Positions 32,675 through 36,102 of a stretch of DNA of 64,000 nucleotides are shown one piece after another. Source of the DNA: Thermomicrobiales bacterium (GTDB taxonomy: Bacteria; Chloroflexota; Chloroflexia; Thermomicrobiales; UBA6265); NCBI GenBank assembly GCA_020432165.1, contig JAGQGU010000006.1:1-64000 (forward strand), written 5' to 3'. The first letter of the stretch is position 1. Every line of letters begins with the position of its first letter. Under the pieces are notes generated by a model. It was given only the letters and a program-made list of their open reading frames with translations, did not search any database and had not been told where the DNA came from. The position numbers were made by a program, and so were the translations under genes.

Positions 32675-33808
32675 ATGGGCGATATCGTGCGAATGGGAAT
32701 TGTGGGTGCGGGTACCATTGCCCAGCGCGGCATTATGCCGCATTTGGCCGTGGACGATATGAGGGACAAGGTGAAGCTGCAGGCTGTGTGTGATCCCGTT
32801 CCGGGTCGCGCCGCCGCTGCTGCTGAGCAGTATGAGATGGCTTTCAGCAGCGAGAGCTACGAGGATTTGCTGGAGAAGGGCGATGTCGACGCCGTTTCCA
32901 TCTGCTCGCCCATCGGTCTGCATTATGAGCAGGGCATGATGGCGCTGGAAGCCGGCAAGCACATCCACTTCAACAAGACGATGACGACCACCGTCGCCGA
33001 GGCCGATGAGTTGATTGCTCTGGCCGAGAAGAAGGGGCTCAAGATCGTCGCCAGCCCGGGCGAGGTCCTGCGACCGCAGGTGCAGGCCGTACGCCGTGCT
33101 ATTGCCGAGGGCAAGATCGGTATCCCGGTTTGGGCTATCGCTGGCGCCGGTTTTGGTACCTATCACCTGGACGAGCCGGAACGTCGGGGCAAGGGCAGTG
33201 TGCCCGCCATCGATCCCAGCTGGTATTTCCGTAAGCCAGGTGGCGGTCCGCTCTACGATATGAGTGTCTACGCCTTCCATGGCATGACCACCGTGCTTGG
33301 CCCGGTCAAGCGCGTGAGCGCTGTCAGCGGCATTGTTGTGCCGGAGCGCACCTTCGCCGACAAGACCGTCAAGACCGAGGCCGATGATAACACCGGTATC
33401 CTCATGGATTTTGGCAATGGCTTGTTCGCGGTTGGCTTCGGCTCGGCGGCTGGTTCCACCAACTGGTGGTTCACGGGCACCTACTTTGGTACCGATGGCA
33501 AGATCGAGGGCTTCAACCTGAATGGTGAGGAGCTGGAGTATCCTGAGCGACCGATTTCCGACGCCAATGGTGGTGGCGTTGCCGGTGCCCAGGCAACCCT
33601 GCCGCACGTGGTCGGTGACCATGTTGGTATGGAAGAGGCGCACGTCTTCGAGGATGTCGCCCAGCTAATCGATTGGGTTCGGGACGACAAGGCCAGCCCC
33701 GTCACGGCGCAGCACGCCCGCCACGTCATCGACATTGTGGAATCCGCCTACCGCGCCGCCGAAACCGGTCAGACGCAGGAACTCACCACGACGTTTGAGC
33801 GGAACTGA
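32675..33808 (+). CDS. Gfo/Idh/MocA family oxidoreductase
   Basis: A 377-residue NAD(P)-dependent sugar or polyol dehydrogenase. The N-terminal Rossmann fold has GIVGAGTIAQRGIMPHL, followed by AVCDP. The catalytic-lysine motif EKP is replaced by FNKTMTTT, where K is present without the usual Glu-Pro. The C-terminal barrel includes GGGPLYDMSVYAF. The AGGGAGG site sits 9 nt before ATG 32675, which is preferred over ATG 32669. Its last 134 bp are duplicated at 34895-35028, showing that a tandem paralogue once followed. Confidence 0.85.
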   Translation: MGDIVRMGIVGAGTIAQRGIMPHLAVDDMRDKVKLQAVCDPVPGRAAAAAEQYEMAFSSESYEDLLEKGDVDAVSICSPIGLHYEQGMMALEAGKHIHFNKTMTTTVAEADELIALAEKKGLKIVASPGEVLRPQVQAVRRAIAEGKIGIPVWAIAGAGFGTYHLDEPERRGKGSVPAIDPSWYFRKPGGGPLYDMSVYAFHGMTTVLGPVKRVSAVSGIVVPERTFADKTVKTEADDNTGILMDFGNGLFAVGFGSAAGSTNWWFTGTYFGTDGKIEGFNLNGEELEYPERPISDANGGGVAGAQATLPHVVGDHVGMEEAHVFEDVAQLIDWVRDDKASPVTAQHARHVIDIVESAYRAAETGQTQELTTTFERN

Positions 33809-33835
33809 TTCGAATTGTCGATACCCCGCTATACT
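33808..33835 (+). promoter_or_regulatory. Promoter of structured RNA copy 1
   Basis: ATTCGA, 16 bp, TATACT. The same arrangement, ATTCAG-16 bp-TATACT, precedes RNA copy 2. The -35 element overlaps the Gfo/Idh stop codon. Confidence 0.5.
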
Positions 33836-33841
33836 TTGGTT

Positions 33842-33919
33842 GATCCCCCCGGTCGCATCGTCTGCCGGGGAGGGTGAGTAACCACCCGGTGGGCGGCTCC
33901 TGCGGGAGTCGCCCATTTA
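33842..33919 (+). ncRNA. Structured small RNA with intrinsic terminator, copy 1
   Basis: A predicted RNA of about 78 nt. Stem 1 pairs CCCCGG with CCGGGG around a conserved loop TCGCATCGnCTG. Stem 2 is GGGTG-AGTAAC-CACCC. The terminator stem is GGGCGGCTCC-TGC-GGGAGTCGCCC followed by ATTT. Copy 2 conserves the loops, and stem 2 and the terminator differ by compensating changes, which points to a functional RNA rather than a DNA repeat. No known family was recognised. No coding frame is convincing here. Confidence 0.6.
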
Positions 33920-33991
33920 CACCTTGGCGCTTGCGTGTATGCCCCGTATAAGCGCACTAAATCTCCTGAATGGATTCACTTTCATAGTCAA

Positions 33992-34019
33992 ATTCAGACA
34001 CATACGATCGTGATATACT
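33992..34019 (+). promoter_or_regulatory. Promoter of structured RNA copy 2
   Basis: ATTCAG, 16 bp, TATACT, ending 6 bp before the start of the conserved RNA, exactly as in copy 1. Confidence 0.5.
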
Positions 34020-34024
34020 TCCAG

Positions 34025-34108
34025 TAATCCCTCCGGTCGCATCGACTGCCGGGGAGGGCGGGTAACCGTCCGGAGAGGGCCACCTGCGGGTGGTCCTCTT
34101 TGTATTTT
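34025..34108 (+). ncRNA. Structured small RNA with intrinsic terminator, copy 2
   Basis: A predicted RNA of about 84 nt. Stem 1 pairs CCCTCCGG with CCGGGGAGGG around TCGCATCGACTG. Stem 2 is GGGCG-GGTAAC-CGTCC, where the U-A pair of copy 1 is replaced by C-G. The terminator stem is GAGGGCCACC-TGCG-GGTGGTCCTC followed by TTTGTATTTT. It ends 18 bp before the NYN gene, so it could be either an independent small RNA or a leader whose terminator controls that gene. Confidence 0.6.
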
Positions 34109-34126
34109 CTGATTTGGAGCCAGGCG

Positions 34127-34837
34127 TTGAAGACGTCGTTTTACGTGGATGGATTTAACTTCTACTACGGTGTTTTTCGTCGCAAGCCACCCATCGCCGT
34201 TCCGGCTGACAAATGGTTAGACTGGCGTTCGTTAGCGAATCACCTGGTTGATTCCGGTGATATCGTTCACAAAATCCACTACTTCACCGCTACCATCGAA
34301 CGACGCGAAGACGACGATGGTCAGAGTCTACGTCAGGAGACCTATTTTCGGGCTCTTCGCCGGGTACAGGGCGTGGAACTTCATTTTGGGCTATTCAAGC
34401 GTCGCCCAACCTATGGTGAATTGGTCTTTCCTCGCCCGGAGTCTCTTGGATTGGAAGCTGGCCGAGTGGTAAAGGTAGTCCGATACGAAGAGAAGGGTTC
34501 GGACGTAAACCTTGCAACGCGTCTTGTCGAAGACTCGTTTACGGGTGGTATTGACCACGCGATAGTGGTGTCGAACGATACTGACCTGATAGCACCCATC
34601 CTATCAGCCAAGAAGCGCATTCGTGTTTCTGTAATCAGCCCTCATTCTCGCTTGGATCCAACCTTGGCTAACGCGGCCAATGCTGCCTGGGTTTTGGATC
34701 CGGTCATTTTGAAGGATTGCCGATTACCCGTTCCGGCCAGGGGAGAAGGTGGAGAGATGATTGCGCCACCTTCTTCGTGGTTACCGGAATTCTGGCCAGG
34801 TTCTGATAGCTTCGGTTTGCCTGGGGATGAGGGATAA
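34127..34837 (+). CDS. NYN-domain (PIN-like) protein, probable ribonuclease
   Basis: A 236-residue protein from TTG 34127, with GGAG 8 nt upstream. The N-terminus FYVDGFNFYYG is the first acidic motif of NYN/LabA-type domains, and KGSDVNLATRLVED and VVSNDTDLIAPI supply the other conserved Asp residues. NYN proteins are metal-dependent RNases, though many are uncharacterised. The start follows the two structured RNA genes directly, and codon use is less GC-rich than in the neighbours, which suggests transfer. The unit lies between two related Gfo/Idh 3' ends. A role in RNA processing or defence is only a guess. Confidence 0.75.
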   Translation: MKTSFYVDGFNFYYGVFRRKPPIAVPADKWLDWRSLANHLVDSGDIVHKIHYFTATIERREDDDGQSLRQETYFRALRRVQGVELHFGLFKRRPTYGELVFPRPESLGLEAGRVVKVVRYEEKGSDVNLATRLVEDSFTGGIDHAIVVSNDTDLIAPILSAKKRIRVSVISPHSRLDPTLANAANAAWVLDPVILKDCRLPVPARGEGGEMIAPPSSWLPEFWPGSDSFGLPGDEG

Positions 34838-34894: not shown

Positions 34895-35028
34895 GGTTCG
34901 CGACGACAAGGACAGTCCGGTCACGGCGCAGCACGCCCGCCACGTCATCGACATTGTGGAATCTGCCTATCGCGCTGCCGAAACCGGCCAGACGCAGGAA
35001 CTCACCACGACGTTTGAGCGGAACTGAT
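34895..35028 (+). pseudogene. 3' remnant of a second Gfo/Idh oxidoreductase gene
   Basis: These 134 bp align without gaps to 33676-33809, with about eight mismatches, almost all at third codon positions. The encoded tail changes only one residue (Ala to Asp). This is the mark of a paralogue that was once under protein selection and then lost its 5' part. A GTG at 34893 keeps the frame open for 44 residues, but no RBS is seen. Confidence 0.75.
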
Positions 35029-35093: not shown

Positions 35094-35155
35094 CGTACGC
35101 CCGCGCTTTACGCGCGGGTCGAGCAGGATCTCCGCGGGAAGAGATTTTGCGGATG
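35094..35155 (+). repeat. REP element 1 upstream of RAYT
   Basis: CGTACG, then hairpin CCCGCGC-TTTAC-GCGCGGG, then GTCGAGCAG and a second conserved part ending TTGCGGATG. It is nearly identical to the copy at 35203-35263. Confidence 0.75.
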
Positions 35156-35202
35156 AACAGCCTTGGGCGACCAGACCTGCAATTCTGATTCCTCCGTGAT
35201 TA

Positions 35203-35263
35203 CGTACGCCCGCGCTTTACGCGCGGGTCGAGCAGAGCCTCCGCGGGCAGAGATTCTGCGATG
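35203..35263 (+). repeat. REP element 2 upstream of RAYT
   Basis: CGTACG, the same CCCGCGC-TTTAC-GCGCGGG hairpin, GTCGAGCAG, and a tail ending TCTGCGATG. It has the same orientation as element 1, with a spacing of 109 bp. Confidence 0.75.
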
Positions 35264-35321
35264 CTTTCGGATACGCGCTCGCATGCGTTTGCCACAGATA
35301 TGGTTAGTTGAGGAGAGCCAT

Positions 35322-35810
35322 GTGCGTCGCAAACAAAATCCCAATCAAACGCGACGTCATCGCCTTAAGGGTCATGATTACTCCGCACCTGGCTACTATT
35401 TTGTGACCTTTGGTACCAGCAATGGTGCCGATCTGCTGGGCACGATAGAACGAGAGGAGATGCGTCTTTCTCGTATTGGTCAGATTGTTCAGAGTGAAAT
35501 CGTTGCGTTGGCCCGTGCCTTTGATCATCTAGTCGTTGATGCGTATGCCATCATGCCAAATCATCTGCATCTCCTGATTTACCTGTCGATAGAAAATGCC
35601 GATACCTCCGTTTCGAGTGTTGTTCGCCATATCAAGGGTCGAACTGCAGCTGCCTATCGTGTACTACAGGGTGATGCGGAGACACGTGGCACTCTCTGGC
35701 ATAAGGGATATCACGATGAAGTTGTGCGTGATGACCGTCATCTTGATGCTGTGCGACGATATATCTTTGAGAACCCGCTTAAATGGGGGAATGAGGATCG
35801 GTGGTACTAG
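35322..35810 (+). CDS. REP-associated tyrosine transposase (RAYT, Y1/HUH type)
   Basis: A 162-residue Y1-type single-domain transposase from GTG 35322, with AGGAGAG 6 nt upstream. The N-terminus HDYSAPGYYFVTFGTSN, the HUH motif MPNHLHLL, KGYHDEVVRDDRHLDAVRRYIFENPLKWG and the Tyr in RRYI match IS200/RAYT enzymes. RAYTs cut single-stranded DNA at REP hairpins and are kept as domesticated genes. REP elements point towards the gene upstream and away from it downstream. Its last codons lie inside a degenerate copy of the downstream repeat. Confidence 0.85.
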   Translation: MRRKQNPNQTRRHRLKGHDYSAPGYYFVTFGTSNGADLLGTIEREEMRLSRIGQIVQSEIVALARAFDHLVVDAYAIMPNHLHLLIYLSIENADTSVSSVVRHIKGRTAAAYRVLQGDAETRGTLWHKGYHDEVVRDDRHLDAVRRYIFENPLKWGNEDRWY

Positions 35811-35840
35811 GGATGGCCGGAGGAGTTGGGCTATGGCTCC

Positions 35841-36094
35841 GACTTGCTAACCCGCAGCTAAACTGCGGGCGTACGTCAGCGGAAGCCACCTGAAATCGGA
35901 GCACGGGGACCGATGGTACCAGGGGGCTTGAGAGGTTGGGTTATGGCCCCGACTTGCTGACCCGCAGCTAAACTGCGGGCGTACGTCAGCGGAAGCCACC
36001 TGAAATCGGAGCACGGGGACCGATGGTACCAGGGGGCCTGAGAGGTTGGGCCATGGCCCCGACTTGCTGACCCGCGCGTAAAGCGAGGGCGTAG
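35841..36094 (-). repeat. 110-bp tandem array with inverted REP hairpins
   Basis: Two 110-bp units (35841-35950, 35951-36060) differ at about four positions, and a third, partial unit follows to 36094. Each unit starts GACTTGCT and then carries a REP hairpin in inverse orientation (CCCGCAG-CTAAA-CTGCGGG-CGTACG at 35851 and 35961; a decayed copy at 36071). With elements 1 and 2 they flank the RAYT gene in opposed orientation. Confidence 0.85.
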
Positions 36095-36102
36095 GGTAGT
36101 GA

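Follow-up and report, generated by a model that had tools for sequence, protein, structure and literature searches.

Type III toxin–antitoxin (TA) loci were defined by repeats preceding a terminator and a nuclease gene, with the number of repeats being variable (PMC5086642). The ToxIN, CptIN and TenpIN families comprise a promoter, a structured RNA or tandem repeats, an intrinsic terminator and an endoribonuclease gene, are carried by plasmids, chromosomes and prophages, and display co-evolution of RNA and toxin (PMC5086642). In the AbiF/RCd22 system, carried on a prophage, a small RNA of two stem-loops and a terminator (abiF RNA, RF03085) lies upstream of a toxic protein; the two share a promoter, most transcripts extend no further than the terminator, and neutralisation of the toxin by the RNA occurs both in cis and in trans (PMC12373285). 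For LabA-like/DUF88 NYN proteins, and for the NYN/PIN ribonucleases MARF1 and Regnase, no cognate hairpin RNA is known to be encoded next to the protein gene.

The NYN loci described here meet the type III arrangement of an RNA gene, an intrinsic terminator and then an endoribonuclease gene, with ribonuclease activity being inferred from the fold. They differ from the known families in that the nuclease is NYN/PIN-like, neither profiles nor structure matches satisfying the criterion of a ToxN/AbiQ fold, in that nested folding of the RNA reveals only simple hairpins, and in that it is usually present as one copy, often alone and sometimes in the opposite orientation. Because the toxin fold differs, the NYN module is not filed under the known type III families, though it is proposed to work like them. 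By analogy, AbiF/RCd22 is the closest worked-out parallel to the proposed mechanism; however, its protein belongs to the Abi_2 family, linked to Cas13 ancestry, rather than to NYN, and no Rfam family, RF03085 included, matched the RNAs at those related loci that were scanned. The proteins share their fold and acidic active site with LabA-like/DUF88, MARF1 and Regnase ribonucleases, and all match the PADLOC model HEC-09, which is a protein model without an RNA component, and for which no mechanism was found in the open-access literature searched.

Two structured RNAs upstream of an NYN gene

A preliminary description, made from the sequence alone, had proposed two RNA genes at 33842-34108 of the 64,000-nucleotide stretch analysed (hereafter the window), and this was found to hold, with RNA1 occupying about 33842-33918 and RNA2 about 34026-34106. 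The features are as follows; G402 denotes a genome of the same genus, and R1 a covariance model described below.

1 to 64,000, forward strand: source DNA, Thermomicrobiales bacterium GCA_020432165.1, contig JAGQGU010000006.1
33676..33809, + strand: 3' end of a Gfo/Idh/MocA oxidoreductase gene, duplicated beyond the RNA-NYN cassette (94% identical to 34895-35028)
33808..33835, + strand: putative RNA1 promoter, ATTCGA - 16 nt - TATACT, -10 at 33830-33835 (sequence; -35 weak)
33842..33918, + strand: RNA1, ~77 nt, three hairpins (fold, covariation with RNA2 and the G402 RNA)
33847..33870, + strand: RNA1 stem P1, CCCCGG(UCGCAUCGUCUG)CCGGGG (fold, three-way covariation)
33872..33887, + strand: RNA1 stem P2, GUAA (GNRA) loop (fold, three-way covariation)
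33890..33915, + strand: RNA1 third hairpin, terminator-like, with a UGCG (UNCG) loop and a weak T tract (fold, covariation)
33992..34019, + strand: putative RNA2 promoter, ATTCAG - 16 nt - TATACT, -10 at 34014-34019 (sequence)
34026..34106, + strand: RNA2, three hairpins and terminator, about 77 nt (R1 match, fold, covariation)
34031..34054, + strand: RNA2 stem P1, CUCCGG(UCGCAUCGACUG)CCGGGG (covariation)
34056..34071, + strand: RNA2 stem P2, GUAA (GNRA) loop (fold, covariation)
34074..34099, + strand: RNA2 intrinsic terminator, UGCG (UNCG) loop (terminator scan, covariation)
34127..34837, + strand: NYN-domain ribonuclease gene (activity inferred from fold), starting at TTG, with a GGAG ribosome site at 34116-34119; the RNAs' putative toxin partner
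34895..35028, + strand: second, non-coding copy of the oxidoreductase 3' end, bounding the cassette (94% identity)

Both RNAs folded better than shuffled sequences, with z-scores of -3.6 to -5.2 (RNA1 -3.95 and RNA2 -5.2 in one run), only nested structures having been computed. The P1 loop is of 12 nt in the window RNAs. What had been described as a 'GTAAC loop' in the second stem is a GNRA tetraloop (GUAA in RNA1 and RNA2, GAAA in the G402 RNA), and the shared 'CCTGCGGG loop' of the third hairpin is a UNCG-class tetraloop, UGCG, plus its closing pairs, as is common in terminators. A three-way count across RNA1, RNA2 and the G402 RNA had 98.6% of cells paired over 23 pairs, and changes on both sides were found in seven of these (one in P1, one in P2 and five in the terminator), a number reached by 0/500 shuffles. 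The claim of compensatory stem changes was thus upheld. It had further been argued that the differing yet pairing terminator arms indicate RNA-level selection; the pairing is real, but covariation of terminator arms alone proves merely a terminator, and the case for selection rests also on stems 1 and 2, which covary too. Homologues that lose the pairings, which would have refuted the proposal, were looked for, and the homologues vary yet keep them. The window RNAs are structured RNAs under RNA-level selection.

The proposals of common promoters and of intrinsic terminators were each only partly sustained. Both promoter blocks are present and TATACT is a good -10 element, but ATTCRR is not a sigma-70 -35 element and is not retained in G402; a promoter scan of the window RNAs returned no full sigma-70 promoter match. 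The RNA2 terminator is good and was called by the terminator scan, whereas the RNA1 hairpin, with only a weak T tract (ATTTACACC), was not called.

The absence of a recognised family was confirmed, in that Rfam gave no matches on the window at the gathering cut-off; sub-threshold matches to the sobemovirus FSE and P15 were dismissed as chance-like. Without mismatch, the window RNA motif occurs at just these two sites in the whole genome. Exact-motif scans with GGTCGCATCGNCTGCCGGG of 84,980 genomes and IMG/VR yielded chance matches only, in unrelated sequence, and in a scan of the phylum allowing 3 mismatches the window genome was the sole match. The window subtype is therefore narrow, and its relation to other RNAs is visible solely via the NYN neighbour.

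The window NYN protein matched PF01936 (E 7.7e-8) and HEC-09 (E 1.7e-34) in profile searches, and 23/23 aligned NYN members matched the latter, a candidate defence model, with five Asp residues invariant across all 23. The window protein, modelled with AlphaFold (pLDDT 87.5), matched VPA0982 (2qip; Z 16.3) and the NYN domain of MARF1 (Z 15.2); every other entry scored far lower. By profile, fold and acidic residues the protein meets the criteria for an NYN-domain ribonuclease, though its activity is inferred from the fold. At locus L160 and on plasmids of Pseudomonas syringae and P. koreensis, family NYN proteins are annotated as NicB (6-hydroxy-3-succinoylpyridine 3-monooxygenase), probably a misannotation.

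An RNA family associated with NYN genes

The preliminary description had correctly placed the RNAs just before the NYN gene; it had missed that this tie is not incidental, and that the RNAs are members of a large family associated with a single NYN family (PADLOC's HEC-09). Searches with the NYN protein (tblastn) found matches in 68/400 Chloroflexota genomes, with a patchy distribution and up to six per genome, and relatives in 418 plasmid records and at 76 viral loci; the range beyond Chloroflexota is based on plasmid and phage records, not on a genome census. Nearly everywhere, the upstream region consisted of a -10-like element, a hairpin of the form CCCCNG..GCUUCGG..CNGGG, a short CGAG linker, a terminator hairpin and the NYN start. 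This layout was shared by plasmids of E. coli, Serratia, Phaeobacter, Pseudomonas and Granulicella, and by the majority of the 76 NYN loci from viral or prophage contigs. At most loci the promoter precedes the RNA and the RNA precedes the NYN start, the distance from terminator to gene being mostly 5-50 nt.

Two hairpins and a T-rich tail immediately upstream were sought by an automatic test, which is crude and misses some clear cases; it was passed by 71/93 cellular or plasmid and 50/59 viral NYN loci, compared with 36/311 (12%) regions upstream of other ORFs within the same DNA and 7-13% of shuffled sequences. R1, a covariance model built from 42 RNAs, found the RNA beside most NYN loci that failed this test, although some recoveries are training members and hence not independent; those outside the training set are L161/L225/L227, L094, L228, G151, L125, L144 and L145. 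Within the 42-RNA alignment, two-sided changes were present in 17/18 pairs, and 93.2% of cells were paired, against 77.1% when shuffled (0/500 as high) and about 40-50% in slid controls. Covariation was seen in 8/9 pairs of the first stem, which is itself no terminator. On the window itself R1 retrieved RNA2 (22.4 bits, E 5.9e-5) and, weakly, RNA1 (8.8 bits), so that the two window RNAs form a divergent subtype bearing an additional GNRA hairpin. They are linked to the family by their position ahead of NYN, by the CCC..GGG first stem and by the terminator, and for RNA1 this kinship is inferred.

Similarity among the RNAs followed that among the NYN proteins (Mantel r 0.78, with 0/1000 permutations as high), and in genomes with several modules the RNA resembled that of the closest NYN elsewhere, rather than that of its own paralogue, in 20/24 contrasts. 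The RNA is thus matched to its own NYN lineage and not to the host genome. Most loci carry a single copy, but two tandem RNAs, each with a terminator, precede 8/42 Chloroflexota NYN genes, a recurrence that had also been missed. Arrays of 4 or 5 hairpin units ahead of a terminator and NYN were found on mobilizable plasmids of 4.5-9 kb from E. coli and Klebsiella. For instance, the 4.6-kb E. coli plasmid CP057030 encodes four hairpins (CCTGTGGCGTGCCGCAGG and variants), the last of which is CCTACGGCGTGCCGTAGG with a compensated stem, followed by a terminator and NYN; two E. coli relatives, one on a 9.3-kb plasmid, have five hairpins, and Serratia has 2 units.

There were several instances of RNAs departing from the upstream position. 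Among 77 strong Chloroflexota R1 matches, 27 had no tblastn-detected NYN nearby downstream on the same strand, and this NYN-less third would be odd for a simple antitoxin unless its members are remnants or decoys. Some free-standing RNAs adjoin truncated NYN genes (L193, L200, L201 and L207), and 20 stand-alone RNAs still exhibited two-sided changes in 15/18 pairs. Stand-alone groups were also observed at seemingly corresponding loci in several genomes (L167, L171 and L205; L194 and L196; L195, L197 and L206; L198, L203 and L204). In five lineages the RNA gene adjoins NYN on the opposite strand, being convergent behind it in the mycobacterial prophages L161, L225 and L227 (60 bits) and also in L094 and G151, and divergent before it in L228 and G008. 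These opposite-strand and stand-alone copies indicate that the RNA is not merely an NYN leader. A conserved hairpin and terminator RNA accompanies this NYN family, sometimes repeated or arrayed, matched by lineage, and sometimes alone or reversed.

A putative toxin–antitoxin module and alternative explanations

The interpretation that we favour, with moderate confidence and on sequence evidence only, is that a small hairpin RNA, present here in duplicate as RNA1 and RNA2, partners the adjacent NYN ribonuclease in a type III-like TA module; toxicity, inhibition or binding, processing and transcription are all inferred. In its support are the hairpins and T-rich tail upstream of most NYN loci, the carriage of the modules on chromosomes, plasmids and prophages or viral contigs, the arrays, the free-standing and reversed RNAs, the covariation within the RNAs and between RNA and NYN, the ribonuclease fold, and an architecture shared with type III TA and AbiF/RCd22. 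Counting against it are the single RNA, in place of a repeat array, at most loci, the third of strong RNA matches without NYN, the loose tie between RNA and toxin at the window locus (described below), and one Pseudomonas survey in which HEC-09 correlated with susceptibility to phage and not with resistance (PMC12447246). Under the proposed mechanism, most transcription would halt at the RNA terminator, leaving the RNA in excess, and NYN would be made from a little read-through mRNA or from its own promoter; the RNA would bind NYN and block its active site. Should the level of RNA fall, through loss of the plasmid or prophage or upon phage infection, free NYN would cleave cellular or phage RNA, resulting in growth arrest. 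Like ToxN, NYN may trim these arrays itself, and the second RNA copy in the window genome may provide a higher dose of antitoxin.

A bolder reading, to which we would assign about an even chance, is that these modules represent a widespread, unrecognised class of RNA antitoxin, an NYN ribonuclease with a trans-acting hairpin RNA, which arose independently of ToxN and AbiF and spans at least Chloroflexota, Pseudomonadota, Actinomycetota and Acidobacteriota, with the free-standing RNAs serving as extra antitoxin (anti-addiction) genes. No paper joining NYN with an RNA antitoxin was found in the open-access literature searched, a weak absence given that only open-licence papers were covered. If the TA interpretation is right, a common 'hypothetical NYN protein' would be one member of an RNA-protein pair, and its gene should be interpreted jointly with an RNA of ~60 nt that is unlisted in the databases searched. 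The toxins neutralised by RNA would also gain a second nuclease fold, one probably reached by convergence, and very small, laboratory-tractable modules (the E. coli 4.6-kb plasmids) would become available for direct measurement of RNA-toxin specificity and co-evolution.

Of the alternatives considered, an active ribonucleoprotein, in which the hairpin does not inhibit but serves an anti-phage effector as cofactor, sensor or targeting element, would accommodate the match of all 23 aligned members to a candidate defence model, the viral and plasmid carriage, the pairing of RNA and NYN lineages and the stand-alone RNAs. It is nonetheless considered unlikely, as the hairpins are fully structured with no variable guide-like segment seen, and the order of promoter, RNA, terminator and nuclease, together with arrays of 4-5 units, are traits of inhibitory type III RNAs. 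It is similarly doubtful that the hairpins act only in cis as a leader, whether as a transcription attenuator or as a cleavage site through which NYN controls its own mRNA, without any function as free RNA. The usual position of the RNA between promoter and NYN start and the short distance from terminator to gene favour such a leader, and termination in cis also forms part of RCd22 control (PMC12373285); however, the RNA is on the strand opposite to NYN in five lineages, tandem copies are complete and each has its own terminator, and the stems of free-standing RNAs still covary, such that orientation and stand-alone copies largely exclude this explanation.

Least probable of all is that the hairpins are mere insulating terminators, or REP-like repeats, that lie by chance near mobile NYN genes. 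One hairpin per RNA is indeed a terminator, and REP-like palindromes are present 1 kb downstream in the window, but 8/9 pairs of the non-terminator first stem covary, the type of RNA tracks the type of NYN, and the window RNAs are confined to this locus in their genome.

Congeners and surroundings of the window locus

The order of oxidoreductase, RNA, NYN and thioesterase genes is conserved in G402, which has a single RNA, 89% identical to RNA1. Between the two genomes, identity is 84% over the flanking oxidoreductase DNA and just 44% for the NYN protein (L049 in G402). The NYN gene has therefore changed far faster than its surroundings with the RNA kept, through either very fast change or replacement of NYN alone, and at this locus the RNA and the toxin are not tied to each other. 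In a third congener, G401, the oxidoreductase has neither RNA nor NYN directly behind it. Two further NYN-RNA modules are encoded by the window genome, L062 (G000:C82:83052-83814) and L068 (G000:C56 near 18686), with quite different RNAs; the C56-type module (L068) has a counterpart in G402 (L069).

The 134-bp duplication of the oxidoreductase 3' end appears as if the cassette had arrived by recombination, or by insertion with a long duplication; G402 has a single copy of this segment. Further downstream, REP-like palindromes (CGCCCGCGCTTTACGCGCGGG) were observed at 35094-35260, 35163-35810 and 36065-36096 of the window, around a gene for a REP-associated tyrosine transposase (RAYT), and this REP/RAYT stretch is without counterpart in the congener's interval. 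An imperfect tandem repeat of ~112 bp, with up to three units, begins within the 3' end of the RAYT gene and occupies 35778-36093.
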